Made by a program: the position numbers and the translations under genes | Notes under the pieces: generated by a model | The model's input: the letters and a program-made list of their open reading frames with translations, nothing else | Told to the model about the DNA's origin: nothing | The model's database searches: none | In this document: one piece after another, positions 1-61,561 of the stretch | Position numbering within the stretch: position 1 is the stretch's first letter | Layout of the letters: each line of letters begins with the position of its first letter | Assembly: GCA_030407005.1 (NCBI GenBank) | Contig: JAUDYN010000005.1 | Coordinates: 186,001-250,000, forward strand | Direction of reading: 5' to 3' | Length of the DNA stretch: 64,000 bases | Source of the DNA: Desarmillaria ectypa | Lineage: Eukaryota > Basidiomycota > Agaricomycetes > Agaricales > Physalacriaceae

Positions 1-157
1 AGCAGTACGTTCGGGGTCGCAAGCAGGGTGAGTCGGGACGAAATTTTCTGTATGGACTTGTAAGGCTTATCGCCGAGGATAGAGCGCCCAGGAAGAGCGA
101 GATGACGGCAGCTCGTCATTTACAAGGGGTCAACTTCGCACCCCACCGCCAACGGAG

Positions 158-12770: not shown

Positions 12771-13499
12771 TCTGACTTGGTTCGCCAGAGTGACGTGCTA
12801 CAGCTTAGGCTTGATTTGCATTCTTTTTTATGGCGAGTACTCGAATAGAGCTTCTCGTGAGAGTCCGCTCGGATTATCGGTAGCTCATGTTCGAACTTCG
12901 ATGTACGCGTGACGCTGGAGGCCCGGGACGAGGTCAAGAGGTCTGCCTGTGGGTACGAGACGCGCGCGTATGAACAATAGCTGGGCATCACAAGACAAAG
13001 CTTAGCCATTCGAAGCAGAACTCTCACGTAAACTGTTCTGATGATATGCCTCGGAGAGCGGCAAAAGGGCGACTGGTGGTAATGCGAGGCAAGTTGGGTT
13101 AGATGACAGTCGTCGGGCCGACGTCTCCGCTGAGGATGGAAGAATAGCGGAGTTAGTACTTGAGATATCTGATGAGTAGAAGATGACAACGATTGTGCGG
13201 CACGGGTGGAACGAATTCTACCGCCTCACTGAGTCAGTATGGGAAAAAGTCAAGTTAAGCGAATCGCATATGGTATGGAGATCAGCGAACGTCAGGACTT
13301 GGTAGTCAATACGTCGAGGGATTTTCCTTCTCGCCAAGTAGTATATACAGGTCCCATGTTCGTGGTATCCTACACGGGATCCAAAAAAGCTCTAAACAGC
13401 GGCAAATTTCTTCGGTCCGGATGTTTTCCGGAGGTCACAAGCTTCAGCACACAAGCGGCGAGTACGAACCTGAAGCAAGAGAGAAAAACATGGCAAACC
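12771..13499. other. Intergenic; no gene recognised
   Basis: Upstream region of the esterase. No domain or RNA gene recognised on either strand. Confidence 0.5.
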
Positions 13500-25339: not shown

Positions 25340-28300
25340 TCAGTGAATAAATCCAGTCTTTCGCCAATGTGCTACCCATTTCTCCACAAGTTCCCCATTG
25401 ACGGTCGGTGCCTGCTTCAGACTCGGGGCGATCTTAGTCGTCTCTTCTGTCAAGAACACCATCGGCTTTCTATGTGACGGCCCATATCTCATACGGAAGA
25501 ACGGCTGCCACACAACGCGTGAGTCACCTATAGCCGCCCACCAAGAGAGGTACTCACCAACAACTTGATAGTCGGATTTTTCTTTCTGTCCTCATCCGAC
25601 TTTGCCAGCCTCTCTACCCACTCGTTCTTATCTACACGCTCGAAGCTCACACCAGATGCTTCTAGTTCCCCAAGAAGATCCTTCCAATGTGCCGATGTGT
25701 TGGGATTCACGATATGATACACAGCCGTAGCGGGCTTCGTCGCGTTCAATACGACCTCCGCTATACTCTTCCCCGCGAAATCTACAGGTAGCCACGATGG
25801 ATGCTCGTCAACCACAGGAAGCGCGCCCACAGTATTCGCACTCCTGAACATCAACGGCCACGCCTCCGTTTCGTTCCACACACCGCTTCAAAGGAGAAAA
25901 TCAGCATACACTCCCCTCTCGAGGACGGAACCACCCACTGCACAGAATCGCCGACCATCTGGCCTATCCGCAGAACGGATACTGGCACCCCACTTTTCTC
26001 CGCCGCGCGCTCACACAGCTTCTCCACGACCCACTTGCTCTGCGCGTAACCTGTTCCCGCAGCAGTTGACGGTGCAGGAGAAAAGCCCTCTGAACATGTC
26101 TCGTCCCTGGATCCCTGCCTACAGCTGATGGACGAGCTGAACGCGAATGATGCAGGCTCAAAGAAAGGTGACTCGAGACACAAGTTGATCAGGTTCACCG
26201 CACCACCGATGTGCGAGTCGTAGGACTCAATGTTGAGCACGAAATTCACAGGCCAGGCATTCTGTTTTTGAATCAAAGTGAATACCACGGCACGGAAGGA
26301 AGGTGAGGTTGTGACGTACGTGGATGACGTCTGTTACTTCATCTCGCAGAGCGCCGTACTCTTCTTCTGTCAACCCGAGGAGAGGGTCGTTAGCGTTTGC
26401 TGCGTACGACGTGACCTTGTTTTCGTCGACGGAGACCTTTCTGGCGGTAATGGACTCTCGGAGTCGTTCCATAGATTCCGCATGAGACTTGGCGCGGGAC
26501 AGGCAGACGACCTTTCGAACGAAAGAGGACGCTGTTAATTGAGAAAGGATATGAGCGCCAAGGGATCCTGTTGCGCCAGTGAGGAGCTATGCATGAGTGA
26601 TGTGAGTCTCTTGTTTTGAGGTGTGAGGAATCCGGGCTTACGATTACGCGTGCGTCGGTAGGCTTCGGTAGAGCAGTAGCTCTGGTTGTATGTTTGCCAA
26701 CCTTGGCACTCCATTTATCGAGCAGTACCAGCATCGTAGCTTCGTGTCCATTGTCTACTTGAGCGCCACTACCGCTTTGCAATCGCAGGAGATAATCAGC
26801 AAGTCTGGTGAAGCGTCAATATTAGGGGCCCAATCAAGGATGGAAATGGACACACTTCTCCACCGATGGATGCTCGTATACCACTAGCAAGGCAACTGTG
26901 AGTCTTTCATCCTTCTGGAAGTAAAATGTTCTCCCTTACCTGTCTGTCCAAGGCTATGAGTCCCCAATTCAAGCTCCTTCTGCAAGCTATTCCGTATCCT
27001 CGTCGCCTGTAACGAGTCCACTCCAAATGCGAAGAGATCTACTTTTCTATCGAGCTTTGCCGAGCGACTGGGGCCAAGGGATTTGGCGATCGTGTCAAAG
27101 ATGTACATCTCCAGCTTTTCCCGCGGTAGCGTTTTCTTCTCCACCTCGACGTCAGTTCGGTCGAACCGGGCGTAGATACTTTCTGAATACCAGTTAATCA
27201 TGGTACTATTGGCTGGTATCAAAGTAAGTGACATACCTATGAGGTCTTTGAACTTTGCATAGCATGCCGGTCGGAGTATGCTCATCTTGGTGGCCACCGG
27301 GATATCTGTACCATACCTGTGTTTTTTCCATCAGTTTCTCTCTCGCGAAATAGCATACGGACACGCACGGCAAGAATTCTACCATCTCGGGTAATAACCG
27401 TGAATGTGTCGGTGCTTCAGCATTGGCTTGCTCAATGACGGGCCAGACTTTGGACACGAGCTCGTCTCGGGAGAGACCTTCTTCATGTGCGAGGTCGGAG
27501 GGGAGAATTAAGCATCCTGTTTGTGGTTTGCTGGCGCCGAAGATAATGGCTGGGAAGACGTCAGTGGGCGGAAACCTATAAATGACGCTGGCTTTACCTT
27601 CCGCAACGTATGGACTGTTTCCTCGGATGCAGAGTTCCATGGGGACTGTATCGCTAGTCAGCAGGGATAGATCGGCTAGATGGATTCTTACCGGGGTTGG
27701 TCTTCTCTCCAAGGATATGGACGAGCGTATCATCAAGCCTTCCGATGTATTTGTACAAGTCCTTGCGCTCGGGATGTCGGAGGAAGAGGTCCTTGGTCGC
27801 GTAGGAACCGTCGGGGCGGTTGGTCTCGATCTAAGAAGTGCTGAGATAGTGCACTCCAAAGTCGAGAAGAGATTAACAAACCTTGGGAGGATACCCGTCC
27901 TTGACGATAACTTCAAATGTGTCACCACCTTGTGGTTCCCAAACGAGATAGTTGGCTGAACCGAGCAGAGGGCGGGTCCAGTTCCAGAGTTTGTCCGTCG
28001 CGAAGTTGCGGTTGGAATTCATCAGAGATCCGGTCTGCAATAGGTGAATTAGGTTTATTGATGAATGGAACTATTTTTACCTCTGTTGTTCCGTAGATGC
28101 TAAGCAAGTTCACTCCAGCTTGGATGAGTCTGTCACCTAGATCATCCTGATTATAAACGGAATTAAAAAAGAAGTGGAGGTGTATGAGTGAGGAGCCTAC
28201 GGGCAGAGGAGCACCTGCATATCCGACGATATCAAAACTGGCTAGAGCGTTGACGCCTTCAGGCGTTTCCGCAAGGAGCTACAATGATTGTTGTGAGCGC

Positions 28301-29347
28301 AAGCTTTATAGGAAATATGAAGGAAAATAATACCTTAATAACATATGGTACAGCATAACATTGTCGGACAGGAGGAGATGCAGCGAGTACGGCACAGATG
28401 TTACTGGATGTTAGAGGCAGATGAGGCGGGAAGAGCGTCAGCGGTTGACCGGGATAGATACACCGGAATCTAAGGATAGAGTAAGTTAGTTTTCGTCAAT
28501 GGACCACAAGGCAAAGAAACTGACACAGCAAAGTGACCGTATCCATGGAACACAGGCAGGGTACTGAAACCAGGCTTGTTCTGGTTCAACGCGACATTTG
28601 CAATGAGACCATAGTGGGTAATGCGGACTGGTTTAGGGAATCCGGTCTATGAAGGAAAGGTCGAGGCGTGGAAACATACTGGAAAATATCAGGAAAGGAC
28701 TCACCGAGCCAGAAGAGTGCAGAATGACAGCGGGTCGTTTGCTCTCCTGTTCTGGTGTCAGAACGGCTGGGAAGGGTTTAATCTTGATGCTCTCGACCCC
28801 TTCGGGACCCCACAAAGGGAAACGTTTATCTTCGACGAGCTCCACCGCGTATTCTTGGTCGCGAAGGAGCTTCTGCGCGTCATGTGCTTCTTGGACGAAT
28901 TTCGTGCCGTAAATAAGGTGGGTGGCGTTGGTGAGCTTGGTGAGGTGTGCCACTGCTGGAACGGAGTTGTTCACCGAGAGAAGGAGGGCGGTCAGACCGA
29001 GCTTTGCAAGGGCCATCTCGAGAAAGGATTCGTCGATCGCTGTGCTTGTCAAAACAGCAATGGTCTGCACGGGAGGTACCTCGCCTAGGCCCGTCTTTGG
29101 CGCGAGGCCGAGGGAGGAGTAGTACCATGCAAGGCGGTCAACGGCAGATTGGATTTGGGAAAAGCTACACGAGTGTTAGTGCGAGTCAACAAGAGAAAGA
29201 AAATCAAGGGTACGTGAGCGAGCGCAATACTATGGCAGAACCATCCTCAGGCGACCCCGTATAGATAGCAGGATCATCCGGCTGGTCTCGTGCACGAATT
29301 GCGACAAGTTCTGTAATGGACTTCGCTTTAAAGGTTACTGCGGGCAT
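25340..29347 (-). CDS. NRPS-like carboxylic acid reductase (A-T-R)
   Basis: Large multi-exon gene (about 1,080 residues). Domain order: an AMP-binding adenylation domain, then a carrier domain, then a thioester-reductase domain. Adenylation blocks include AVILHSSGSTGFPKPV, SIYGTTE and the IGRLDDTLVHILGEKTNP loop. The carrier has DLFAFGVDSLQATRIRN with the phosphopantetheine Ser. The reductase has LLTGATGSLGA for NADPH and GYAQSKWVVEK with the catalytic Tyr-x-x-x-Lys. The last exon ends HWRKTGFIH at 25340. Such enzymes activate a carboxylic or amino acid with ATP, load it on the carrier arm and release it as an aldehyde or alcohol. No condensation domain is present. The substrate is unknown. 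ATG 29347 (MPAVTFKAKS) is chosen; an in-frame ATG at 29389 adds 14 residues. It is divergent from the transporter at 29738, sharing a promoter of about 390 bases. Confidence 0.94.
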
Positions 29348-41224: not shown

Positions 41225-42205
41225 CTAACTGATAATAGGTGGGTCTGGTAAGTCATCTTCTACAAAAAGGCGAATGTCGATCCACTCGTGAATTCTGCGC
41301 TCCCGCGCCCATTCTCGAAGCTTGTCGAAATTGCGGCATGAATGTGCCTGGGAGCTGTATCCTACGACAGCCGAGAGCTCTTCGCTCCATTGCCAGACAT
41401 TCACAGAAATATCTGCACTACACCTACAGAACAATTTCAGTCAGTGTCGTCGAGCTTCACTGTCAAGACTCGCTCACATCAAAGACTGGCGGATCGCATC
41501 GACACAGTGGGAGACATGTTCAGGATTTGCTTGAGGGTCATCGAAGTGATCACTATAAAGAGCATGACGGACGACGTGCTATCAAAGGGTTGAGTTACAG
41601 TGAAAAGGGAAACAGGTATTGGAATCCCTACTCACAAGGCAATGGAGCTGATGGAAAACGTCCAAACCAGCAAGGTAGTATCCATCTTCACCGTAGATAG
41701 GATAAGTCTTATTTGGAAGAAGAGCCGCCTGGCTCCTTGGTATCTTCAAAAGTGTGTCTGCGGTGACGATATGAGATGATGTATGAGGATGCCGTTAATG
41801 TAGATCACTGACGGTTATAAAGATCGCCCCAAGCTCTATCAGCGTCGGCGTCAAAACCTTGGTATATTGTTTTTTCTTCTCGCCCAACGGTGAATACTCT
41901 TACTTCGTTCTCCAGAGCCTCTTGAGCAGGCGCTACACAAAAGGCAACTAAGAAGGTCAATAGCATCAACTGATGTGACACTCACAATATAATAATGGAC
42001 GATCCACGAAGATGGGATGACATTCATTGGTTCCGCGAAAGTTAATGATCAGTGAGAACGCCAGCACGATAGCTTGCATGAAGATGACCCCAATGTAGAT
42101 CTTCTCACGCAATTTCGAACGAGTCTCCCGAGTCTTCCGTGTGGAGTATGGGTCATCGTCAGGAGACACTAGTGGGACATAATCCAGCGACTCGTTGCCC
42201 ATCAT
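41225..42205 (-). CDS. UstYa-like DUF3328 oxidase
   Basis: Spliced type II membrane protein. A short cytosolic tail (MMGNESLDYVPLVSPDDD) precedes one transmembrane helix (IYIGVIFMQAIVLAFSLII). The luminal part has APAQEALENEVRVFT, then DRAWGDLYN, then KTYPIYGEDGYYLAG. The first metal-site motif HQLHC follows. After an intron, HVSHC gives the second HxxHC, continuing into IRQSLMCSADISVNVWQW. The two HxxHC motifs define the UstYa/DUF3328 family, which oxidatively cyclises ribosomal peptides (ustiloxin, asperipin, victorin) and acts in other mycotoxin pathways. Both motifs are intact; the second exon junction (TTGAT to GTGTAGTGC) restores the Met-Cys pair. The start at 42205 is about 1 kb from, and divergent to, the signal-peptide/repeat locus at 43253, the arrangement expected of an enzyme and its peptide substrate. 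Confidence 0.9.
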
Positions 42206-43207
42206 GAAGAAAACGTATTTTGCGGGGTACAGGAAGGAGCTCCTGTTGTATAATGTATTCCAAGCATCAAAATACTGTTCTAGAGATTAGTAAAAGCATG
42301 GACTTGATTTTTCAAAAAAGGAAGCGGACCTGAGGTAGCAAAGAGTCCGTGCCTGATTAGAACTGTCGAATGCTTTGACAGATTCACTGCGTCACGTAGC
42401 TAACCCCAGTCCTGCGACCTTTTTGCGAGTTGACAATAGCTTTGGCCAAGAAACGTAACCATTCATTTGGCATATAATTTCCACCTTCTCGTGCGTGCCT
42501 CAGCAGCTGTCAATGTATCGACTCTGCATCTAGTTCAACTTTGCTGATGATGGACGGACAAAAAGTGCCTCGGTATGACCCTACCACCATGTTTGCACAT
42601 TTCGCACATAGATAAAGGTCCCAAGAACGAGAAAGTTACACAATGGCTCAGACTGAGCGACGTCAAGAAAGGTGTTGCGTACCGACACAAAGCATCGAGG
42701 TGGGAAACAGGACCCGGAACAGCCCGTTGCCGACTCGGCAAATTCCGCCAATCCTTCAAGCTTCGACTTTCAAGTTGCACTTTGTACCTCCACATAACTA
42801 ACCACCCCTTCAGGAACCACGAACCGTGAGGTAAAATTACAATCATTCCGACTATGACTTGTTTACTCAGTCCTTATCATGTGGGCAGCGTGCGGCTTCT
42901 TCACGGTCTCTTGACTCTCTTCGGTGGTCAATACCTTGCGGCGATGTCACTTGTACCGGCACTTTTTCTCTTTCGAGTCGAAGTAATTTTAATTTTATGT
43001 CCATATTGGACTCAGAATATTCCAACAGGCCGGTAGCACTCTGTTTTGACAGATCAATCATGTAACTCGTCTCCATCCTTTACCTTGAGGTGCTTGCTGC
43101 GAGATCCATATCATTCTTGTCACTGAGCAACCTGAAAACTATGACTGATACAATTGTGCGTGAAATTGTGCATCTCGTCCTCGTGCTCAGTTCGGAGGCA
43201 TACTCGC
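42206..43207. other. Divergent promoter region
   Basis: About 1 kb between the UstYa-like start and the repeat-peptide start, containing no convincing gene. It probably holds both promoters. Confidence 0.5.
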
Positions 43208-43214
43208 TATATAA
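43208..43214 (+). promoter_or_regulatory. TATA box of the repeat-peptide gene
   Basis: TATATAA lies 45 bases before the ATG at 43253, the same spacing as the TATA boxes of the sHSP genes in this window. Confidence 0.5.
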
Positions 43215-43252
43215 TCCTTAAGTTACGATGAATCCATACCGTTCGATTCATC

Positions 43253-44359
43253 ATGTTGGGAATCATGAAACTCACCGCTTTTGTTTCCCTTGCTTTCTTT
43301 GCATTCGGGAGAGCCGGTGCAGGGATCATTGTTGTACGTGTGCAGCTTCATGCTGCTGGTCCGCACCTCGCTGAATACAATCCTTCAGCGTCCTCGTGCC
43401 GAACTTGGCTCCGCGTAAATTCTGAACATTCTCCTCCTTTAATAGTTGTCTAACAGCACTGCAAGATATGACAACGGCCCGAAGACCTATAGGGTTTGTC
43501 TCGTGAATTAGTAAGCTCCCAAAGACGCCCGCCCGTTTTGTTGATTGATGATACCCGCGACAGCTATAACGAGACCTTCGATCTCACCGATATTAACCAT
43601 AGGCTCGTCAGAAAGACATTGACTCCATAGCACCGTGAGTTCTCTCTAGGCCTGACACTTACCAGCGGATGACTGACATACATATATCTCTGCCAGTTAT
43701 GCTAATGGGCCGGATACTTATTGGGCCCGCGGTGTTGAGGTAGGTTTTCTTCTGGTTCCCTGTTGGCTATGTTCCTTCAAGCTTTTGAAAATTACAGGCT
43801 CGCCAGGAAACCTCTCCGGAAGTATAGTTGTATGAAGGCATCGGTCAAGTAGCTGACTATATCATCGGAATAAACAGTTACGCCAATGGACCCGACACTT
43901 ATTGGGTGCGTGATGAAAAGGCAAGCAAGTTCTTGTATGGTCTATTCGCAAAATAACTCTCCGCCCCTTAGGCCCGCGAGAAAGAGGTTGACTCCGCTGT
44001 GCCGTGAGTAATCTAATTGACACAATGGTTACAATCTGAAATAACATGACTTGCAGTTACGCAAACGGGCCTGATTCTTATTGGGTACGAGATGTAGAGG
44101 TACGGAAGCCTTTGTTTTGCCACCGCTTCCAGGGATGTTTATGCGCTCCATTCAACAGGCTCGTCAGGCAGAGGCTAATCCGCAAGTGGCCTGCTGATTA
44201 CCGTCTACATACGATATCAACATCACTTTCTCAGCTACGACAACGGTCCTAACACCTATTGGGTTCGCGATTTGGAAGTTGAGGTGAGGGCACCCGCTTT
44301 TCGGAAAGTAATCTCGCCAGTGTTACTAATGCGATTTATAGGCCCGCGGGAACCAGTAA
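43253..44359 (+). CDS. Secreted mini-exon repeat peptide, candidate RiPP precursor (damaged)
   Basis: Exon 1 (43253-43333) encodes a signal peptide: MLGIMKLTAFVSLAFFAF, then GRAGAGIIV; a second Met at 43265 is equally possible. Donor GTACGT follows. Downstream, two kinds of mini-exon alternate. Core exons (43466-43502, 43697-43739, 43878-43920, 44057-44099, 44235-44283) each encode Y-[AD]-N-G-P-[DNK]-[ST]-Y-[WR] and end in phase 0. Spacer exons (43389-43414, 43603-43634, 43798-, 43972-44003, 44159-, 44342-) mostly begin A-R-[QE] and restore phase 2. With GT-AG introns the frame is open from exon 1 through two cores, then meets TAG at 43825. The spacer at 44159 lacks a usable donor and the core at 43878 needs a GC donor. 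The last spacer ends in TAA at 44357. Two Tyr and one Trp per core suit UstYa-type cross-linking, but no Lys-Arg Kex2 sites are seen. Function is inferred; the locus may be decaying. Confidence 0.5.
43389..44359 (+). repeat. Tandem array of ~180-bp units, each with two mini-exons
   Basis: The YxNGPxxY-coding segment recurs at 43466, 43697, 43878, 44057 and 44235; the last four are spaced 181, 179 and 178 bases apart. Between them a second segment beginning GC[CT]CG recurs at 43603, 43798, 43972, 44159 and 44342. Exon segments are far better conserved than the intron segments between them, which suggests past selection on the encoded peptide. A further spacer-like copy (GCCCGTGAGGAAGAG) appears near 44449. 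Confidence 0.85.
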
Positions 44360-44780
44360 ATGTAAGTCGTCACCTTTGACCTGCTTCTGGGTTTCATCGG
44401 CTGATCCTTGTTTTAGGTATGGTGGTAGGCCGGCCTCTTCAAGCATTATGCCCGTGAGGAAGAGGCAAGTCGCCTTCATTTGACTCCTAGGACTACAATG
44501 CTAACCCATCGTCATAGTATAAGTAGTTTTGGTTGAACTTGCATCCGTGTTGAGTTGGAACTCGTCCACAATTTTGAAGTATAAGAGTTGTCTATCAAGT
44601 ATTTTTCATGGATCTGTGTAATGAGATCCCTCACCGTCAACGTCTGAATATTTCCCAGATTTTATCCTATTGCACAACCAGACAGTTCTCCGAGGGAAGA
44701 GCTGTGTAAGTACTAACGAATGCACTACGCGGTATTTCCCTACAAGTTCATTGTGATATATTATGTAGATCCCTCCAACA

Positions 44781-44847
44781 CGTTATCATGAACGACTTTG
44801 TCCCCGAATTATGCCGCAATCTCCTCCAGTATCTCACCTTTGATTCC
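44781..44847 (-). pseudogene. Relic of a sugar-transporter C-terminus
   Basis: On the minus strand, 44847 downward reads GIKGEILEEIAA-stop-FGDKVVHDN. The intact transporter just upstream on the same strand ends KGKTLEEIAA.FGDDVVHSE at the equivalent place. The match covers about 22 codons with one stop, showing that a tandem copy of the transporter gene once lay here and has almost vanished. Confidence 0.65.
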
Positions 44848-45147
44848 ATGCAAACCTCTCAATGGCCAATGATAAGACATCGTAAAGGACCTATGCTGAG
44901 CGGCCAGTCATCATAAACCTTTGCACTGAGCGTCAAACTGCAGGCGGCCCGGCTCAGGCTAGGAATAGAGGGAGAAATAAGAAGGTTAAATTTTAAATCG
45001 TAGAAGCCACCATACTGCGAAAGGGTGGGGTGCGAGTGAGTGGAAAAGTTGTAGTGCGTTCCGCCCGACAAGATGTACCTAATTGACGCGCCTTCTATGC
45101 ACCTTGTCCAGATGATGTACCATTCATTATACTAACGATTAAATACC
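44848..45147. other. Spacer between transporter relic and intact transporter
   Basis: No further transporter exons could be recognised; non-coding as far as I can see. Confidence 0.45.
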
Positions 45148-47506
45148 CTATGCAATAGTTTCCAGTCTTTCATCTTGCCCTTTGCCCAACGAAGCCCCCT
45201 CGGATTCAGAATGGACGACATCGTCTCCAAAAGATGCTGCGATTTCCTCCAGGGTCTTTCCCTTGGTTCTATGGTCATTATAAAAAGATGTTGATAGAGG
45301 AAGGTCCAAGAACTTACTCTGGAAAGTACACGAATATCCCAACTGTGGCCACGAAGGTTGTCGCAAGAAAGACGTCTGTCAGAATGTCAGTGTCATTCTT
45401 TATGGCTCGAGAAAATGACTTACAGTAGAAGTTCGCACCGATGTTTGCAAAGGCCTACCAAACAAGTAATTCAGCATAAAAAAGAGGCCGAAGTTCACTG
45501 AAAGAAAAAACAAACACTAGGACCTGCTTCTGTGAGAGCAACATTCCATACAAAGTGTGACGTTGATGCTAATCCCATACTGCGGTGCGAATTACAATTC
45601 AACGGACGAAGAATCAAAGAATATGTATACGCACACTTTACTTCGTAAAAAGACAGGGAGAACTTCGACACCATACAGCCAAGTAGTACTATTCAGACCC
45701 AGGTCTTTCGGCGGCAGATTCAGAGGAGGTGACCGATGAATAAAGGCCAAAGGACTCACAATAGATGGTTGTAAACAGATAAATTCCGAGGAGCGCAAAT
45801 CCTTTCCCCACATTATTGTCGGATCCAGCGAAGTAGCGTGTCATCAAAGCGGAGTAAAGGAGATCCACACATAACGCAGATGTGCCCCATCTCAGGAGAT
45901 TTACACGGCCGAATCTGTCTAAAAAATAGATCTGTTTGTGAATTAAAAAACTGTGCATGGACGATGGTAGAATAAATCATAAGCAACGGGGCTCACCGAG
46001 AATACATTCATGATGAGACCTACGGTCCCGTAGACGCCAGCTAGCAAGAGTATAGTTTGACCGGTGATGCCCAAATTCTTGTAGAGCGTTGTTTGGTAGT
46101 AGCCTCAAATTCTGTGTTATAAATCTGACCATTGAAGGAATCAAGGATTAGGAAACTCACCAACAACATTGACTCCAGTCAAGGACGTCATGCTCTGGAC
46201 GGCGACTGAGATGAGAATACGTTTCTTGTACTTTGACCAAGCTTCCGTGAAAGTTTTCACTTCCGTCGACTTCAAATTAGGATGGTAAGAATAAAGTGGC
46301 TTTAAACAACTGCTGAACATACTTTTTCGAAGAGTATTTGTTCTCGCATATCATCAAATTCTTTGTGCAAGTCTGCCTAGAAATGTTATCTCAGCAGCGC
46401 GAAGGACTGAAGACGAATGCCTCTCACACCAGAAAGACCACCGCGAAGTTGAGTGAACACCATACGGGCTTCATCGTCGCGGCCTGAAGTTATGAGCCAT
46501 CTCGGGGACTCCGGGAGAAAGAATTGCAGGCCGAAGAAGAGTATGATTCCCGGTGGGATTTGAAGTGCCAGTGGGAATCGCCACTGAAAAGATGTCGTAG
46601 TGGGTGCGTATCCGCAGGCAAAGCTAATAGAAGGTGATAACGCGATGAGAATACAGAAAATCCCAAAGCTTACCCAACCCAGTTAGCTGACAACTACAAT
46701 GAGAACGACGACTATAGTAAGGCTAAGAGGTCCTTACCAAGGAAAGTACCAAATCCTATCATGTATCCTGAAAGTCCACCAATCAATCCACGAGACGCTG
46801 GAGGCCTAGCATGGAATATGAAGATCGACATATCAGACAGATATGAAACATCAGTACGGACGAAATCTCAGAGTTGTATATAGGAACGGTGCCAATGAGA
46901 CCTCCCCTATAGATGTATGTATTAGCAGATGCAAATCTCAGTGAATCTGTAACCTTCATACACAGCAACGCCAGTCAGTATTCGTCCTACGAGAAACATC
47001 GCATAGTTCTGAGCTGCCGTTTGAATGATCGTTCCTACGGTGACCTATGCCGGACTATTAACGCTGGGATGATAAATGGACAAGACCGTCGGCGTACCAC
47101 CATGCACATCAGCTGCATATATCGTTTCCGACCTAGGTAATCCCCCAAAAGACTTTGTGTTATAGCACCGACAGCTTCGCCAGCGATGTACGTTGCAACT
47201 ATAGCCCCAGTAGCTGCGGCGTTCGGATTTCCCATGTCTATAAATATGTCAACCAAGATGACGAAAGAAGAAGAGAGCTCACAATCTTTGAAGCTCTGAT
47301 GGGCGATGCTCGTGGTGATAATTCCCGTATCATATCTACCGTGCCAGTCAGCCTTAGAAAGTACTCCACTTACCGAGAGGATGAGCCCACCGACCCGAAG
47401 AGAAACGACCCTGTGGAACGTGGATATAAAACTTGACGAGAAAAAACCGCGGGATGGTCATACCTAAGCCTGCGAAGGCCCCAAGCATGACAACATAGCC
47501 CTTCAT
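45148..47506 (-). CDS. MFS sugar transporter (sugar porter family)
   Basis: About ten exons and 12 membrane helices. The N-terminus is MKGYVVMLGAFAGLG at 47506, then YDTGIITTSIAHQSFK. LLGDYLGRKRYMQ carries the D-x-x-G-R-K motif. GGLIGTVPIYNSEIS and RGLIGGLSGYMIGFGTF follow. LPESPRWLITSGRDDEA is the PESPR signature. DRFGRVNLLRWG matches the second D-R-x-G-R motif. GVEVLPVFLRSK corresponds to the E-x-x-P-x-x-x-R-x-K motif. The tail has FPETKGKTLEEIA-type sequence and ends DERLETIA at 45148. All sugar-porter motifs are present, so it should be a functional proton-coupled or facilitative carrier for a sugar or a related polyol or quinate. Lying in the UstYa neighbourhood, it could also export or supply that pathway, but this is speculative. 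A decayed tandem copy lies just downstream. Confidence 0.92.
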
Positions 47507-49116
47507 GTTGCGTGTCGTAAATTACAGTAAGATACCAAAACCAGAACAATTCCTGGGTTACTTTATAGTCCCCTTCATCAACTGAAATCAGACATAACCA
47601 GAAGGTTCTATGGGGTAAAGAACTCGAGAAGCATGCCTCATGACAGGATGACTAGGTCCCATGCCAAAGATTGAGTGGCATGGCGCCGCTTGAAGAGGTC
47701 CGGACTCCTGAAAAAGCGAATGGTGTGATCATGCTGCGGCCATGGTTTGGTGTTGTTCCGGGTTCGATATCGAAACATGCAGAGCTGCCGTCAGCTTTTT
47801 CAAGGGATTAGACCAGTATTGCGCTGCTTGTATCCAAGGTAACCCGTCTGGACTCTGATAAGGTAAACATTGGACGAGCAAGAGACTTTGAAAAAGGCCC
47901 GACCGGGATACAATTGCAAGGTTCTGCGCTGATGTCAATGATGTCTCAACCTCCCCTAGTTCGAGAGCTTGGAGCAAAGGGGCACATCTACGGAACGAAT
48001 GTTTACAACGATAGTAGTGATTCGGATGTTGTGAACGTTGACCAATGACCTACTAGTACGGGGCCTCTAGTACGTTGACGGAACGATCGGGTTACGTGAC
48101 CTTACCGGCCCATCCCATCCCATCCGTTCTGCCTTCTTCCCCTCAACCCCGCCTTTTTTAGACTCTGCAATTCATACAACCGCAGCAAGTGCATAGTAAG
48201 ACGCGGTGGTATCTCTGTATCTCAGGTCTCCCCCTTCCGTCTTGATCCAGGTTCCCTCCTTTTTGAAGCTAATTTTCTCGGGTGTGCCGATACTGAGTGT
48301 GGAATACATGGTATACCTTCTTTCCCCTGACAGCTCTTTTTACTTATTCACCGCCACAACAACTATCTAGTGTCTACAGGTGTCTACTCTGGCATTAAGG
48401 CGTATACTCATTGCTACTCGATTATTTGCCGTTAACGAACGTTTCTGATATTCGACTGCTTACCTGAGTAAACTCGATGACTGATTCAAACAAAGTTCAT
48501 TCAATCTCTTTAAGTCCCTCCGTCAGTTAACAAGATGATTTCGTTGATACGTCGCTTATTCCTTTCTTGTCTCTTAGGATCTCCAATGCTGACTCCGTAC
48601 ACGCGTGCTGCAATGAAAACTTGGTCATGTTCTCGCTTCTGGCCCTCATGTTGGACTACAGATAAGAACGCTTACACGAGACTCGTATTGCGATGGCATG
48701 CTTCCCTTGCGTGCTTTCCTATATGGTAATTCACATGGTGCCGGACATACTTGATGATGTTGTCGGTGGTATTATGTTCTTTGTCGTCAACGCAATTTCG
48801 TCGTGACATGGAGAATCCAGAAGGCATGAGAGTCCAGCAGGACCAGATAACGGGATTCTATCGTCTCCCATGCATTCATCTGTTTAAATGCTTTCGTACA
48901 CACGCCCATGGTTTGTTCAGATGGTCATACATTATAAAAACTTGTGGACCAGCTGCCTATCTTTCCAGTGAGAACTTTCTATCATACAGACTAGCGCGAT
49001 AAGAAAACTTGCTGTGATACGCTAGGGTAGGACTACCACCATGGAGGATATAAATTTGGACCCTTTAGGGCTAACTCTTCCAAGGCGTGTGTACTCAGCC
49101 TTCAACCGGTCTAGGA
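47507..49116. other. Intergenic; no gene recognised
   Basis: A minus frame at 47729-47977 (MLQALELGEVETSLT...) and plus frames at 48535-49002 look moderately protein-like, but none shows a known domain or a consistent splice pattern. Confidence 0.4.
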
Positions 49117-50364
49117 ATGGACGATAGCAGGGAGGACTCGTTTCCCGGGCGTGATGGATACTTCAATTGCATTCTCATTGAGGCGTTGACCCATGGTGAG
49201 TTCTTCGTTCACATCCTAGGCTTCTCCGAACTTTTACTCGCTTTCTTCCAGGAATGTATACCACCTTAGTTATGGTAGCATTCTGGCAAACAGGCGCGGC
49301 GACAGCGTTTGATTATCGTCCTTCGATCTGATTTCGGAAATAGCATCCATGAAGCGCACTTCAGTTCGCGGAGTGATGCGTTGTGTCGTCCTGACTATGT
49401 ACTTTTTGGCGACTTTTCATCTTAGTGTCCGATGGTACTGGGTACGACAAGCCTTCGTGGTAAATGCCAGATCGTCGTCGGATACTTTCTTTACTTTTCT
49501 GGACGAGAAATACTTCTGGGTATGGGTCGCAAGTGGAACGGCTTTTAGCATTAACTCGTTTATTGCAGATATTGTTCTTGTTCGTGGATTTACTACGTCT
49601 TCTTTCTCTCCCTGATCGATCTAATTTCACTGTAGATATGGAGATGTTGGATAATCTGGAGTCGAAACTGGAAGGTCATTATTTTGCCTATCCTTTGTAC
49701 GATCACGGGCACAAGTATGTCGCTCCATTGTCCTGTGTTGACGATATGCTGCTAAATTATTTTGACTTTGAGTTTTCAGCGGATTGTTCCTCTATCAAGA
49801 AACCTACGTTTCTACCACCGTAGAAGATGTCTCGGCGTGGGGCGGGTCTGTCAACTGGGGCGTCCCATACTTCACCACGTCCCTCGCTACGACACTGATG
49901 TGCACGATGCTCATCATATATCGACTTTGGACGGTTGGAAGAACCACAAGCCCGATATCGCAGGGCTTCAAAACATACAAAAGCGTTATCGAGATATTGA
50001 TTCAATCAGCAGCCCTATATTCTGTTACTATGATTCTCTTCCTTGCGTTCTTTATGCAGAACGATATCAAGAGTATGTATCCGCTACCTATCCTAGATTC
50101 CATGACCGTGCGTGTGCTTCTTATTGCTCTTTGCGTGTTATGTGTACTAATGCTCCCCGCTAGGGTATGGTCCCGACTTCGATTATGATTCGAGTCGCTG
50201 CCGGCTGGTCCCATCCACAGCTTAGCAGAGATGCAGGGTCGGTGTCCTTACAGCTGACGCCCACTCGTCATCCCGGCACTTTGTCCACTTTACCCGACAT
50301 GACAATTTCCGAGTCCGGTTCAGATCTAGATGAGCAGAAACTGGATTCTACTGATCATGTATAA
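49117..50364 (+). CDS. Basidiomycete seven-helix membrane protein
   Basis: Spliced gene starting MDDSREDSFPGRDGYFNCIL. Hydrophobic helices follow: MYTTLVMVAFWQTGA (after an intron ending TTCCAG), VVLTMYFLATFHLSV, WVWVASGTAFSINSFIADIV, VPYFTTSLATTLMCTMLIIYRLW, EILIQSAALYSVTMILFLAFF and MTVRVLLIALCVLCVLML. The hydrophilic tail contains VPTSIMIRVAAGWSHP and ends LDSTDHV. The ASGTAFSINSFIAD, CTMLIIYR and IxxRVAAG segments recur in a large agaricomycete family of putative seven-transmembrane proteins of unknown function. No catalytic motif. A receptor or sensor role is only a guess. It converges on the P450 gene with 126 bases between stops. Confidence 0.8.
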
Positions 50365-50490
50365 CTGTCGTTAGGGACATAATCATATTCTTGCACGCCA
50401 TTGATTGATCTAGACTGTACTTACAAACAAAATCTTATATAAGGAGTGGATATGAAAGACATGGATAATAGGACACAATCATTCGAATGA

Positions 50491-52805
50491 TCATTCATCC
50501 CTCGCCGCCAGCTTAACCTTCAGACGTAGCTGAGATCCTTTCTCAATCTGTCCTTCAACCGTCGGGGTCATAATAAATGTCGACTCTCTCCTAACCTTCT
50601 CGTTATCGTCGAGCGAGAACTCAAAGGTTCTCAAAAGTTCAATCATGAATGCATGTAATTCCATAACGCTGACAAGATATGAGCACGCTTCCGTAAAGGT
50701 TCAAAGAACGCCAACGTACGCGAATCGCCACCCAATACACGATCGGGATCCACCAGAAAATGTAAACCTTGGTCGCGTTGAATTTAGAAACAGTGACAAT
50801 CAAAGGATATCTTACAGGCTCGCATAAACGCCCAAAGCTGACTTCGTGTTTGGGACCGTATCACGCAACCACCGATCAGGATTGAAGACGTCCGCATCGT
50901 CGCCAAAGATTTCCTTGTTCCTATTCAAGTGCTTCATCAATACATGATTCTGAAGAAAGATGAGAAAGGGTGAGGTCAACCTGTTGTATGCTGCAATAGA
51001 AGCAATAATCTGGGTCCCTTTTGGGATCGGTAGCTCATGTAAGACTTTCCCCGAAGTAGTGGTGATAGGTGTGCTCAACGGAAGCACGTCATCTTGGTAG
51101 GCATATCTGAAAATATCATACACTACGGGATGGTAGCGGAATGTCTCCTTCATGTTTCTCGTTAGTAAAGCGAATAAATATCATATAAACGAAAAATTAA
51201 CCTTGACCATTGCCGATAGGTAAGGCATCAACTCTAGATCAGCTGGTAAGAAACTGCTATCACCACGTTCGCGGACGACCCGCTCCATAGCGCGTATTTC
51301 TTTACGAAGTCTTTCTTGCATCTCGGGCTTTCTGCACATCTCCAGAAGCGCAAAGGATATGGAGTTAGCTGTCGTTTCATGGCCGGCGAGGATGATTGTG
51401 CTGATGCAGAGAACGGGTTGAAAAAGAAATTCCACTGTATAATCAAGAAAACCTACTTCATCTGAGCTAGTAACTCCTTTTGCTCCAATCGTTTTTGGGG
51501 GTTTTCAGAAGCATTGGCTTTGACCAGCATGCTCATGATATCCCTGCGGCCATTCCCCTCGAGCACGGCTTTGGACTTCTCCGTGACAAGGTCTTTGGCG
51601 AGTACGGTGGTCAGCTTGTTCGTCTTCTGTGCGTGAGCGAGACGTGGGGATCTGGAATTGTCCATGATAAATCCCGCGAGGTCGTATGGGAGGTTATCCA
51701 TGATAGAGAGGGACAGGATCGCAGGTTTGCTTGGGAGACCGAAAGTGTCGAACCTGAAGTGGCAGCAGTCTCATCAACTGGGAGACGCGATAAAAAGAGA
51801 AAGGGTGGGAATTACATTAAGTTGGTGTAGGCTTTCACGAGGGGGTTATCCAGACTATCCAGAGCTCCAAATTGGTAGTCAAATGCGGCTGTGAAATGCG
51901 ATAAGTAAATATAACGCGACGATAGGTCGTGCCCTGTTCATTCACCTTCACCGATAGCATCTAAAGCTGCGCGAGAAACCCAAGACGTTACATCAATGAC
52001 AATTGACTGGCCACTGTTAAGCGCCATGATATCCTTCCACTTTTGAGCCATCTAGAAAGAAGGCGTGAATATTTGTTGTGAAAGAGTCGTGTAAGCACAA
52101 GTTAACCTTCTCAGCGCAAGCAAAGAATATCGGGAAGAATGATTTAGATTGGGGGCCGCCGAATCCAGGGAGCATGACTTTTCGGTGACGTTTATGGTCG
52201 TCACCTAAATATCCAAGGAAAAGCTTAAGTAATACATATACATATATATTGACGAAAAGAACTTGCCATCCACAGCCGTGAGTCCTGGACCAAGCACTAT
52301 ATGTGATAGCTGACGTCGTCCGGTTACTTTGGGGAACCTATAACTCGCCGTGTGATAGATATATTGAAGTGCTTTGGGATCCGAGACGAAGAGACGGTCT
52401 TCCTGGGAAATATTAATTTAAACGGTGGGGTTGTACAGTAAAAACCAGTTCTTACTCCCAAAGGCGCGCGCACGCGGAAGACATCTCCATACATCGCCTG
52501 CCATCTGAAGTCGACCTGCAAAAGTTGAGGGGAGGAAGACAGGAATTACAAACGACGCATACTTCGCCGGCTTGTGCTTGTAGAAGCTCCGGTAAGTTTC
52601 CTGGTAAGGCGACCGATTAGCTTACTATACATGCAAAGGCATGGAATAGCGATTTACCATATAAAAATGATTTGGATACAGGTCCCGGAATGTGAGAAAT
52701 AGAGATGCGCGACCACTGTTTATATGTGAAATAGATAGTGGTAAAAATGATGATGAGGAGGATTTCTGCGAACATGACTATGAGGAAACTGGTAGTCCAT
52801 CTCAT
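50491..52805 (-). CDS. Cytochrome P450 monooxygenase
   Basis: About twelve short introns. The N-terminal membrane anchor is SFLIVMFAEILLIIIFTTIYF, followed by the proline hinge ISHIPGP. DFRWQAMYGDVFRV and KVMLPGFGGPQSKSFFPIFF follow. The I-helix motif is AGHETTANSISFAL. The K-helix ExxR is KETFRYHPVVYDIFR. The DPDRW-like NPDRWL segment follows. The haem loop FSGGSRSCIGWRFA is completed by splicing near 50750-50780, with the Cys ligand present. The protein ends VKLAARDE at 50491. Length is about 530 residues. It should be an ER-bound haem oxygenase using a P450 reductase. The substrate is unknown; in this neighbourhood a role in tailoring a secondary metabolite is possible. No damaged motif was seen, so it looks functional. 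Confidence 0.96.
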
Positions 52806-54214
52806 AGAATCCTGAAGGGACCTTTAAAAGGGCCTCCAAGGGGCCGTTCCATCACGGAGAAGCCTGGGTTTGAATAAGACAGTATACATGATGCAGGTAA
52901 TAGAGATGATGTCGAGGGAATATCTGACCCCGTATTGATAATACAGAGGTCCAAATTCGTCGCGTGTGACAGGACCGAGGGAATAATGACTGCTTCGACC
53001 TGTGTCAATCTCACGTGGACAGTAAAATAACGGCAATACCCTCGCCCGTAATGGTACTAACTCCGTCCGATTGACGAGGGTTTCAATAAGAGTGCTATGA
53101 TTACTATTGGGATGGATACCGTTTATCCTAGGCAAAACGGCAGAGCGGTTAATTGGAGGGTAATGAGGAGTTAGACGCCTCAGGAAGACTGCGGGAATGT
53201 ACTCACGGTGGACCCTTCGGTTGCTTTCCATGAAAATGGGACGTGGCTTCCTGCGAGATGAAAATAGAAGTCGCATGCTCCCCTCAAGAGAATGCCGCTC
53301 AATGGTATAAGCAAAAATTGTAGGTCACAGTTCTGACCAAAAGACCCGGAGCTTGTCGAAGCACATTGACGTAGGCTGAGTGCTTAAACGTAAGTAACGC
53401 GAATACTGAGTGTTTAAACGGCAGTGCATATCGAGTCGCAAGATGTCAAGGAGAACATAATGCTAGCAATCCAAACATCGATATGTAGCAGATTCAAAGC
53501 AAAGAAAAAGATAAATGATTCAGTGAACTGGGCAAGAAAAGACAAACCGCAAAAAATAACACTGACCTGACACCCGAAAATGTGACCATGAGTCGGCACT
53601 TTCGGGCCGAAACTTTCCGAGATCGTTCCACCGAACCTCAACGCGAGGAAATTACCTTCCTTTCTGCACTCTTACAGATAACTGTCCATGGCGGGACCTA
53701 CAAATAGAATACCGCTTCTCTAAAAAGAGGGGCGTTCTGTTCCTTTGAGCTCCTTATGGTTCCGTTATTATCGTTGAGCGTCTTTGCTCTCTTTTTGGTC
53801 CGAGAGGTGAGCTTCCTTGGGCATTGCTGCTGCGTATTCTCATCGGCCCGTAATATTGCTATAGCGCTCGCACCTCCCACTGCAGCCATATCGATATATG
53901 CCCCGACAGCCAACGTCACTGTAACAGTGTTGATACCATACCAGTAACCACCCATTTTCGCATGTTTACTGCTTGGCCCAAAAGAAAAGGAAGGATTGAC
54001 ATTACTACGACGTCTTAGCGCTGCAGCTCGTATCGTTTTATGGCCAGTGACTCCTCCCACTTGAGCACACGCAGGTCCTACCAGTGGCACCGACAAAGCC
54101 GTCAAGCTTCATTGTTCGTCCCTCTGTGCCACCTCAACGCCTTTGTCTTGCTTTTGTCTCTTTATAAACCGGTGATATCGTCCTACGCTGCTATTCTGTA
54201 CTTCCATCTGGTGC
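52806..54214. other. Intergenic; no gene recognised
   Basis: Minus frames at 52824-53276 and 53698-54105 are open for 135-150 codons, and the latter has a hydrophobic stretch. Neither shows a known domain; they are left unassigned. Confidence 0.4.
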
Positions 54215-57841: not shown

Positions 57842-59022
57842 ATGAGTAGGACACAGCTTGCTTCCTTATCTTTGCCTCCAATACCTCCCGATGCTAGGTC
57901 AGCGCTCACGACGAGGACATTTCTGACGATACTTCTACCGCCTTTCCTTTCCTATTATCTCGCAGCGCGTCTCGCGATAAGCGACCGAGCGCTTTCAACT
58001 CGAATTGCCTTTCTTCCCGTAGCACTCTATACCACGTATAAATGCGCCATATCACTCGATCTCGCCCCTGGAGAAGAGAACGTGAGAGAAAGATACCTTA
58101 ACGATGTTTTACTTGTACGTCTACGTAGCGCCACACTTGGAAGCTTGGTGCTCATTTCCTATAGCACTCCATGGTCTTATGCTCCTCACGTATCGTCACT
58201 TGGACCTTCACACGAACCCCACCACATCGACTGGATCTATCTTTTCCTTCGTCGCCTCTCCAACTCTGTCTGAACCTCCGAGGATACGGCTGGAACTGGG
58301 GACCACCGAAAATCCGTGCACCACGAGAATGGCGCCCAACGAGTTCCATCGCTCGCTTCGTTATTGCCACCGTCCTATCCGTCCTATTCCATATGATCAT
58401 TTTCGACATCGTACTCATACAAATCGAATACATCGCCCCAGGAACATGGCAGTCCCCCCGGGGCGCACCCTTCCTCCCACCCTCCGGCTACCCAAACCTC
58501 AAGACTACCTACCTTTCCTTCCTCTCCTTCTTCCTCATATACAACTCTGTTCAGATCATCTACGACGTCTCCACCCTCATCGGTGTCGCCCTCTTCCAGC
58601 AATCACCCAGCGAATGGCCACCTCTCTACGATAACATCATCCTCACAACGTCCCTAGCCCAGTTTTGGGGCCGCAGGTACCACCAGCTCTTCCGGCAGAC
58701 TTTTTTGGGGCCTTTATCGCTCTTACCGCTACCTGAGTTTGTGCAGCTATTTGGAGCTTTTCTGATATCGGGTGTTTTCCACTGCTTAGGGGTGTGGGGG
58801 TATGGTAACGGGGCGCACTGGTGGCCGATGGGAGGGTTCTTTGTGGTCAATTCTCTGGGTATCGTGTTGGAGAGGGCGTGGTCCTATCTCTTTGGGAGGA
58901 AAGTCGGTGGAGTGGCCGGAATGGTGTGGACAATCCTGTGGTTGGCTGGTTGGGGAAATTGGTTATTCGATGAGTACTCGAGGAGGGGTATGATCTATCA
59001 AAGGATATTGTTGCTTTTTTAA
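57842..59022 (+). CDS. MBOAT/wax synthase-like membrane acyltransferase
   Basis: Multi-exon integral membrane protein. It starts MSRTQLASLSLPPIPPDARS, then helices TFLTILLPPFLSYYLAARLA and FLPVALYTTYKCAISL. After introns near 58110-58190 and 58200-58270 comes LRGYGWNWGPPKI, followed by IARFVIATVLSVLFHMIIFD. The active-site blocks are FWGRRYHQLFRQTFLGP and LISGVFHCLGVWGYG with a conserved His. The tail has GMVWTILWLAGWGNWLFDEY and ends ILLLF. This architecture is that of wax synthase-like MBOAT enzymes, which esterify alcohols or terpenoids with acyl-CoA; in mushrooms relatives acetylate secondary metabolites. The acyl donor and acceptor are unknown. The start is the first ATG giving a normal N-terminus for the family. 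Confidence 0.85.
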
Positions 59023-59661: not shown

Positions 59662-61561
59662 TCAACTCAGAGTAACACACGACCATCTGGCCAGCGTGTT
59701 CAGTCTATGTAGTTCGTTCAATCTTTGCAGTTCGTATTCAGGAATTTCGAACACTGATACTTTCTCGAATTTCCAGCGTACCTGCATTCTCCCAACTGCC
59801 CAATGACCCTCCATGACCTGCCACTGTAGTCCGGTGCTGCTTAACAGTGTATATCGATCTTCGGGTATTGGGCACTGGTGGGTGGCGATAATTTGGAATT
59901 TATGAGGCTTGGATCGCCGACCTTGACCTCTGACCGTCAGCTCTCCATGTCGCACTCCTCCTTCTGGGTCTGCTACATCCAACCCTCGCACCCAGCCACT
60001 CGGAATCCAGTGTCCAGTATACTGGTCGGCCTTCGTCTTGTCATCCCAGCGAACCTCAGCGCAGAGGTCCGGGTCGTTGCCAATCGACAGAACGTCCTCA
60101 GTCATGACCTGTTTCCATGATGGTCTCCACGATTTGTCTCCGTTTCCAGGACTTGGATATAAAAAAAGCAGCTGAGCACGATACGGCTTCTGCATCGTGG
60201 TCACCAGCGCCGCCCAGGCATCCTCAACAGACTGCGTCTCGTAGTACGCCGGTATCGTCTTCGACTCCAGAAGAAATGCGAGCCCTGCTACTTTATCCAC
60301 AGGATTCTGCGACACGCGATCCTGCATCTGCGCCAGCGCATCAAATATATAGTCTGAGTAACCACTGGCGTGGAGGTTCCTGAAACACCCCAGTTTCCGA
60401 TACAATGTTCTGAGTCTGTTCTCTGCGTGATGATCCTCCCCGTCTATCTGCATGGCGCTCGACGAAGAGTTACCATCCGTGATCCCACCAACAATCCTAT
60501 CCCTGCTGATCTCTTGTAACGTCCACGCGCGATTGAACCAACACCGCTTGCTTTCCAGGCTGTCTGTTCCAAAACTGAAAGGCAGGCCCAGCCCGCTAAA
60601 GTAGTACACCACCCTCGTAGCCATGAGATAGACGTGTCCGATAGTCGGCACATCGAGCTTCCACTCTTCCTCGCGCAGATCTTCCCTCTGCCCGCCTTTC
60701 TGTCTCAAACAGAGAACATCCAACCACACGTACTCTGCTCCCCAATTCAGCATCTCGATGCGGATGAGGTCCAGGCTGGTGCCTTTGGGGATCGGTACGG
60801 GCCATTCATATCCGTTAATGGGCGTCAGCACATCAGAACGATCTTCCTCGTCCATCCAAGCATGTGATATCGCCCAAATCTTCTTCGGACTTTGGATAAC
60901 CCAGTACGGCACCACTCTGTTACTGTAGAGATCCCAGACACGTCGAGGGGGCGTCTTTGGCTTGTTTATCCGTGAATCAGAGAGCTGTCGCATTTGCTGA
61001 TCTTTCTCTTGGCAGATTTGCACTTTGTCTATCATATCGCACATGCTCTCGTGCCAAAATGGGCGGAGGAGGCCAAATGCGGTGCCAAAATCGTAACCCA
61101 TTGAGACATAAGCGTCAAAAAGAGAATATTGAGAACGGGTGTCTCTCTTGGAGGTTCTGAGGATGCGATTGAGTTCACTGAGAAACCCAGCAGCGTCAAA
61201 ACTGGCGCAGGGTCTATCAGCGTTACAGCGTGGTAGGACGGGATAAGTTGTGCAGGTATAGGTCCGTTGCATTGGAACTTGGATCGATGATACCGCGTCC
61301 GGTTGCTCATTCTCGGTATCAGCGAAGAGAGTGACTTCGTGGAGATTCTGGAGAAGTTCCGTCTATACGTGCATCAGTTAAATACAGCGCATTTCCTTTC
61401 TGTTTGTTCCAGCCCACTTACCCTGGCTTTCAGACGTGTATCATCCTTCCAGTGCTGCACTGTATTGAAAAGCAGCTCTTCAAAAGATAAATTACCTAGC
61501 TGAAATAAGGACATGAAATGAAAGTGGAGTAACGGCACATACCGTTCAAGTTAGAGTCCAT
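59662..61561 (-). CDS. HET-domain protein (heterokaryon incompatibility family)
   Basis: Three exons. Exon 1 (ATG 61561) gives MDSNLNG. Exon 2 gives NLSFEELLFNTVQHWKDDTR. Exon 3 continues TELLQNLHEVTLFADTENEQ and then runs open for about 560 codons to 59662. The HET core is IWAISHAWMDEEDRSD, then GTSLDLIRIEMLNWGAEYVW, then LDVLCLRQ, followed by VPTIGHVYLMATRVVYYFSG and CWFNRAWTLQEISRD. HET domains act in fungal non-self recognition and cell death in ascomycetes; in basidiomycetes such proteins are numerous and mostly uncharacterised. No NACHT, WD or other partner domain is seen. Length is about 590 residues. Confidence 0.9.

Follow-up and report, generated by a model that had tools for sequence, protein, structure and literature searches.

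The window, a stretch of 64,000 nucleotides of Desarmillaria ectypa DNA (G000:C28:186001-250000), lies within a genome of 40.6 Mb in 32 contigs. It carries a gene for an oxidase of the UstYa (DUF3328) family and, arranged divergently at 1.05 kb from start codon to start codon, a gene for a multicore peptide precursor, called the array gene below. The features of this pair were as follows.

41225..42205, minus strand: UstYa (DUF3328) oxidase gene, 253 aa; exons 42205-41986, 41932-41813, 41757-41636, 41578-41478 and 41423-41225
43253..44359, plus strand: multicore precursor gene of about 12 exons, from splicing and the relatives P0104, P0106 and P0107
43253..43333, plus strand: exon E1, hydrophobic N-terminus MLGIMKLTAFVSLAFFAFGRAGAGIIV, taken by eye as a signal peptide; resembles MKFSAF...ANAGIII of Armillaria and Guyanagaster
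43389..43414, plus strand: exon E2, RPRAELGS- (RPRVELDS or RPRTEADS in relatives)
43466..43493, plus strand: exon A1, atypical first copy YDNGPKTYR (revised from 43457-43502 for a better fit to relatives)
43603..43634, plus strand: exon B1, ARQKDIDSIAP
43697..43739, plus strand: exon A2, core YANGPDTYW-ARGVE
43798..43817, plus strand: exon B2, ARQETS-; the next intron, 43818-43877, is without a GT or GC start
43878..43920, plus strand: exon A3, core YANGPDTYW-VRDEK; the next intron starts with GC
43972..44003, plus strand: exon B3, AREKEVDSAVP
44057..44099, plus strand: exon A4, core YANGPDSYW-VRDVE
44159..44181, plus strand: exon B4, ARQAEANP; the next intron starts with GC
44235..44283, plus strand: exon A5, core YDNGPNTYW-VRDLEVE
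44342..44359, plus strand: exon B5, ARGNQ and stop codon
44417..44470 (ends approximate), plus strand: possible decayed last copy past the stop codon, GGRPASSSIMPVRKR against RGPTSYWVRNAEDE in Armillaria nabsnona; by eye, weak

The UstYa gene was spliced via GT-AG introns into five exons (762 nt) free of internal stops. Its protein carries both HxxHC motifs, HQLHC and HVSHC, and scored 154.1 bits against the Pfam UstYa family (PF11807; curated cut-off 25), in agreement with an initial annotation of this DNA that had called a complete UstYa-like gene with both motifs.

The array gene holds five repeats, each encoded by a pair of tiny exons, one for the core ([P]YANGPDTYWVRDVE) and one for a spacer (ARQKEVDSAVP). 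The peptide pattern previously noted here, Y-[AD]-N-G-P-x-[ST]-Y-W, was recovered exactly in four of the five cores, the first copy being a variant. A exons measured 43 nt in A2-A4, 49 nt in A5 and 28 nt in A1 as revised; B exons measured 18-32 nt, and introns from B1 onward 51-62 nt. An A exon of 43 nt and a B exon of 32 nt together span 75 nt, so that such a repeat can be gained or lost with the frame kept. Introns of the array gene start with GT in 8 of 11 cases, with GC in two and with neither in one (after B2). The two GC starts both read GCAAG (window 43921 and 44182), making these GC-AG introns; two among 11 is a high share for one gene.

The initial annotation had also described the array as bearing lesions. 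Read as 43466-43493, the first copy translates as RPRAELGSAYDNGPKTYR-ARQKDIDS, compared with RPRVELDSAYDNGLKTYE-ARQKDIDS in A. nabsnona, and the counterparts of its core are YDNGLKTYE in that species and FDNGLKAYQ in Guyanagaster. The odd first copy is thus conserved in two relatives and is therefore no lesion. The description stands for the intron after B2 and possibly, by eye, for the decayed last copy.

Copy number of the repeat and selection on its peptide

In the 12 kb around the array (plus strand), the best set of similar 9-residue words comprised four copies; first-order Markov resamples of the 12 kb gave two copies or fewer in 200 of 200 cases. The array was not detected by Tandem Repeats Finder. 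Across the 40.6 Mb, the DNA pattern for NGPxxYW was found at eight places, four of them in the array, against one for the backward pattern. The looser pattern Y[ADVG-type]NGP was found at nine places, four of them in the array; the backward control gave seven, and matches to the looser pattern outside the window are therefore regarded as noise. Nine pattern places in the genome were translated around the match, and a repeat was seen by eye in none of them. An NGPNTYW beside P450-looking sequence (L044, by eye) was dropped as chance. In a protein search of the genome with a piece of the array, all three matches were the array itself.

Of 54 comparisons per codon position among the four full cores, 6 differ at the first position, 3 at the second and 29 at the third, with proportions of synonymous and nonsynonymous differences (pS and pN) of 0.92 and 0.07. 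Variable columns numbered 2, 1 and 7 of 9 at the three positions (Fisher p 0.0036, columns taken as independent). The concentration of differences at third positions indicates that selection acts on the array peptide. A exons were 63-77% alike (ungapped), and same-place introns of different repeats were 53-68% alike (gapped), the mean being 53% when one intron pair was shuffled 100 times; together with the core differences, this indicates that the peptide was held while the DNA drifted.

A peptide repeat that came to lie beside a UstYa gene by chance is the least probable explanation by far. Sugar transporters and P450s, both present nearby, are common neighbours, which speaks for coincidence, but more than two copies were reached in 0 of 200 resamples, and relatives in three genera refute it.

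Related precursors and UstYa proteins in other mushrooms

The initial annotation had pointed to other Agaricomycetes as the place to look for the same pairing, and there related precursors were found in three genera, with a UstYa relative on an equal-sized contig in two. The successful protein search used two array pieces and a second D. ectypa array, on contig C23 (the C23 array, described below), as three rows of one alignment. Of 3421 candidates, five proteins matched at E-values of 10 or below. Because the alignment combines two unrelated arrays, these values are no family statistics, and the five matches were judged by sequence. The window repeat is carried by P0104 of A. nabsnona (195 aa, E 5e-41), P0106 of Guyanagaster necrorhizus (119 aa, E 3e-35, four units in the model) and P0107 of Coprinopsis sp. 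MPI-PUGE-AT-0042 (112 aa, E 7e-3), which contains AFDNGPKSYWVRS and AYANGPDSYWVRDE. The remaining two matches, the D. ectypa gene itself and a piece of 65 residues (E 0.54) that contains MEDLTGASPDSAFRRG, are members of the C23 family. An earlier search with the A3-B5 piece alone gave one candidate and none at E up to 1. This miss is not explained by length alone: P0107 (112 aa) fell within the range searched, and P0106 (119 aa) lay on its limit. The precursor N-terminus appeared hydrophobic by eye in all four species.

Guyanagaster P0106 and the UstYa protein P0002 lie on contigs of equal size (1,135,965 bases), P0002 being the closer to the window protein of the two Guyanagaster UstYa proteins listed. 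Contigs of equal size (729,199 bases) were likewise recorded for Coprinopsis P0107 and the UstYa protein P0017, one of three listed. A. nabsnona is without a separate UstYa row among the listed entries, which are clustered at 90%.

The window UstYa protein shares 88% identity with an Armillaria novae-zelandiae protein and 87% with a Guyanagaster protein. In an alignment of 58 of 103 UstYa hits, H148, H151, H174, H177 and C178 were invariant and C152 nearly so (P0001 numbering). In a quick tree that combined the window protein with 35 of these 103 hits, the window protein grouped with Armillaria and Guyanagaster proteins, adjoined by a set of UstYa proteins from Gymnopilus, Galerina, Cyathus, Phlegmacium and Coprinopsis. 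Support was moderate (SH-aLRT 86 for the 14-row set), with 16 of 33 inner branches drawn open and long branches flagged by the tree program in other parts of the tree. The predicted model of the UstYa relative P0001 (mean pLDDT 80) has an N-terminal helix at 30-56. A fold search of this model against the PDB found nothing resembling it (best E 2.1), and a UstYa sequence search of the PDB gave a single match at E 0.57 and no similar solved structure.

Core conservation was counted over 13 full units from four species. The count excludes the Trp-less first unit of D. ectypa, A. nabsnona and Guyanagaster, as well as three units of differing length, the sixth and seventh of A. nabsnona and the third of Coprinopsis. 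Gly4, Arg11 and a Ser or Thr at position 7 were each present in 13 of 13 units, Pro5 and Trp9 in 12, Asn3 in 11, and Tyr1 and Tyr8 in 10 each. Trp9 is the steadier aromatic residue of the core. The residues ahead of the core are often Pro or Ala (AP, VP, NP or EPA before the Y). In keeping with the lack of Lys-Arg Kex2 sites noted in the initial annotation, KR, RR, KK and RK numbered 0 in the precursor sequences of all four species, that of D. ectypa being taken as two pieces. Arg11 would be a candidate cleavage point of the precursor.

The D. ectypa precursor may itself be a dying gene, mis-spliced or silent, with the pathway working in the relatives; this is a possibility of some substance, with the odds leaning against it. 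One intron has an irregular donor (not GT or GC), the gene by eye stops a repeat short of that of A. nabsnona and is followed by a decayed-looking copy, and no D. ectypa protein with the window repeat was among the matches (lengths of ~37-222 aa covered). Set against decay are a repeat number that differs among all species seen, four exact cores, GT or GC donors at 10 of 11 introns, a pN far below pS and an intact neighbouring UstYa gene. Loss in D. ectypa would agree with the explanation of the family as a whole given below.

Interpretation of the gene pair

The pair is interpreted, with a probability of about 0.72, as coding for a multicore peptide precursor that is secreted and for the UstYa oxidase that modifies its cores. 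The observation made in the initial annotation is confirmed and a UstYa-linked multicore precursor in a basidiomycete is supported; the Tyr positions that it had considered suited to cross-linking vary, with Phe or Arg in some units of the relatives.

The precursor would enter the secretory pathway. There the UstYa protein, presumably membrane-anchored and by analogy a copper enzyme, would oxidise each YxNGPx[ST]YW core, most plausibly joining or desaturating the side chains of aromatic residues 1, 8 and 9. The cores may then be freed by a protease at the single Arg two residues past Trp (after the Arg of W-V-R-D), with the Arg trimmed, and export would be the last step. UstYa/DUF3328 proteins are reportedly copper-dependent. 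In excerpts of PMC10880069, the reactions ascribed to DUF3328 proteins acting on peptides are oxidative cyclisation, chlorination, hydroxylation, transacylation and dehydro-residue formation.

Several points weigh against this interpretation. Phe stands at Tyr1 in 3 of 13 units and Arg or Phe at Tyr8 in 3 of 13, and there are conserved first units without Trp. These replacements and the Trp-less units make it less likely that cross-linking depends strictly on Tyr and that every unit becomes a product; in some A. nabsnona units the place of Tyr is taken by Phe or even by Arg, which leaves a cross-link confined to Tyr insecure. For want of dibasic sites, the precursor lacks the usual Kex2 route, and the candidate cleavage Arg is missing in the third Coprinopsis unit (TYWAEE). 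The intron after B2 starts with a donor other than GT or GC. For Guyanagaster and Coprinopsis, the evidence of linkage is the equal size of the contigs. An array was present at two of the 12 loci into which the UstYa genes of the genome were grouped, and none was seen at the other 10 (at C30, in the 3 kb read by eye), which suggests that UstYa genes commonly lack one.

The last of these points, that loci without an array are the majority in the genome, also favours a competing account in which the array yields secreted peptides that stay linear (with a signal, surface-active or pheromone-like role) and something else is the target of the UstYa protein. In excerpts of PMC9769878, the KEP peptides of four Agaricomycete species are likewise linear or minimally modified. 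This account is considered unlikely: the lack of dibasic sites means that the array gene is not a KEP, and a UstYa relative on a contig of equal size recurs in two further genera.

Processing by a prolyl oligopeptidase in the manner of the cycloamanides, with one cut behind the Pro that precedes Tyr1 and another behind Pro5 or further on, is rated as highly improbable. The frequent Pro or Ala ahead of the core would fit such cuts. Cycloamanide precursors have one core and no signal peptide, whereas the array gene has a hydrophobic N-terminus and several cores. They are moreover processed in the cytoplasm (PMC9769878, in excerpt).

The array gene is built and linked like that of a dikaritin but falls outside the dibasic-site definition. 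The dikaritins or ust-RiPS (ustiloxin, phomopsin, asperipin-2a, victorin) also combine a repetitive precursor, a hydrophobic N-terminus, short Tyr-containing cores and an adjacent UstYa (DUF3328) gene; the window has several near-identical cores (five copies) and a UstYa gene linked at the distance given above. It differs from them in the lack of dibasic Kex2 sites in four species, in a YxNGPx[ST]YW core with a nearly constant Trp, in repeats split over exon pairs, in its basidiomycete host and in the one UstYa gene found in the window. The term dikaritin-like, used in the initial annotation, accordingly holds as a likeness and fails as membership, the dibasic sites being absent. Excerpts of Vogt 2022 (PMC9769878) likewise describe dikaritin precursors with dibasic sites.

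The KEPs are also multicore precursors of secreted type. As excerpted, Umemura 2020 (PMC7329392) defines them by KR, KK, RK or RR between repeats, and reports a DUF3328 gene among the 15 nearest genes for 103 of 1680 basidiomycete KEPs. Under the definition of at least three repeats of at least 8 aa between such sites, the window family is excluded; the C23 array has such sites. Ustilago Rep1 and the ascomycete alpha-pheromone precursors similarly release tandem peptides from one secreted precursor but differ in yielding linear peptides with dibasic sites. Alpha-pheromone genes are mostly without accompanying DUF3328 genes, Rutstroemia being an exception (PMC7329392, in excerpt). No description of the window family was found in open-licence PubMed Central (titles and abstract starts), the core letters giving unrelated papers only.

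The relatives in three other genera make it probable that the window family is a small group of modified mushroom peptides not reported before. A bolder proposal, put forward tentatively at somewhat below even odds, is that it forms a separate Agaricales class of ribosomally synthesised and post-translationally modified peptides: multicore, UstYa-modified, with a [YF]xNGPx[ST]YW core freed without dibasic Kex2 sites (candidate cut after the Arg two residues past Trp) and with repeats grown by duplication of intron-containing units. Such a class would for these reasons have been overlooked by gene finders and by Kex2-based surveys. In its peptides, the near-constant Gly-Pro turn and Trp would suit a Trp-centred cross-link, of a kind not known to us from ascomycete dikaritins.

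Other UstYa loci, neighbouring genes and significance

The 18 UstYa matches of the genome were grouped as 15 genes, one of them below the cut-off; for Pleurotus, 16 UstYa genes are given in excerpts of PMC8893723. An open frame with a UstYa match ends at C23:3355827, and the C23 array follows 0.5 kb downstream on the same strand.

G000 C23:3356355-3357080 (L023 6355-7080): C23 array, intact KEP-like gene of six exons beside a UstYa gene

This gene encodes a hydrophobic N-terminus and five units like VDVPASMEGLTGASPDTAF (GVDVPASMEGL..AF), each in its own exon of 62-66 nt, with pS 0.63 and pN 0.13 among the units. The D. ectypa protein P0105 is identical to the C23 array over 85% of the query; this public model has units 1-4 as spliced here, misses unit 5 and has extra sequence in front. 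The C23 array resembles the array gene as a multicore precursor close to a UstYa gene with the repeat unit in its own exon. It differs in its unrelated core (GVDVPASMEGLTGASPDTAF), in the RR or KR that ends four of five units (units 1-4), in having one exon per unit and in its introns, which are GT-AG in 5 of 5 cases. Repeat-per-exon precursors beside UstYa genes occur twice in the genome, with unrelated cores.

The surrounding region, C23:3350000-3372000 (L023, L024 and L025), contains a duplicated divergent UstYa pair, a P450 between the pairs and an amino-acid permease. With the C23 array it looks like a peptide cluster; at its second UstYa pair no array was found.

Repeats were scanned for in the UstYa flanks and the rest of the window. 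With 9-residue words, the array, a kelch gene and the C23 array stood out in the UstYa flanks. With 8-residue words, a weak three-copy set in L037 also appeared, and sets in L021 (TPSACQ) and L031 (AKSAxSQ) were rejected, being by eye non-coding, transposon-like repeats. With 7-residue words, chance sets arose in most UstYa loci. The scan would miss arrays with more divergent or fewer copies, and at C30 it covered 3 kb, by eye. There, a degraded copy of the window UstYa gene lies at C30:205330-205682, 69% alike in its best part and with stops in another; no array was seen in these 3 kb (L052, C30:204501-207500).

The further genes of the window were as follows.

83-1444, plus strand: F-box protein
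12105-12797, minus strand: carboxylesterase piece
27209-29175, minus strand: candidate NRPS-like (non-ribosomal peptide synthetase-like) or other adenylating enzyme
45689..47457, minus strand: sugar-type transporter of the major facilitator superfamily, Sugar_tr match in 3 of 3 pieces tested
49313..50364 (ends approximate), plus strand: multi-pass membrane (7TM) gene belonging to a large family that has no name; the pieces tested had no match in Pfam
50480..52823 (ends approximate), minus strand: cytochrome P450 gene, p450 Pfam match in 2 of 4 pieces and haem motif FSGGSRSCIG
58165-59019, plus strand: MBOAT acyltransferase
59665-61362, minus strand: HET-domain protein

The transporter and the P450 had both been named in the initial annotation and were borne out by these matches. 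At 27209-29175, an AMP-binding_C_3 match (60 bits) was accompanied by a piece whose AMP-binding score of 24.5 bits fell short of the cut-off (29.9). The 7TM gene at 49.3-50.4 kb was not counted as a partner of the pair, its closest kin in the genome not being near UstYa genes.

Eight members were found of a multi-pass membrane protein subfamily that has no Pfam family, and six of them lie 1.0-5.5 kb from a UstYa gene.

Near a UstYa gene: C23:3351782-3352318, C23:3371281-3371775, C12:524815-525156, C12:542283-542684, C28:2811939-2812325 and C31:228088-228423
Remaining two members: C3:302976 and C28:2840784

In the wider membrane family, 0 of 36 members were within 10 kb of a UstYa gene; the 36 are the matches down to E 1.4e-8 minus the window copy (~8 kb from its UstYa gene), with 16 weaker rows, seven of them the subfamily, uncounted. 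The resulting Fisher p of 4e-6 is rough, the grouping being post hoc and two of the six being queries. Joint duplication may explain part of the proximity. A weak match to the subfamily (E 0.004) was also seen between two UstYa genes of C27.

Few mushroom UstYa genes have, to our knowledge, an assigned substrate, and the pair described here names a candidate substrate for a UstYa group that is spread across Agaricales. The window family is expected to escape surveys that depend on Kex2 sites and on good gene models. The exon-per-repeat design at two unrelated loci suggests that more precursors may hide behind introns.

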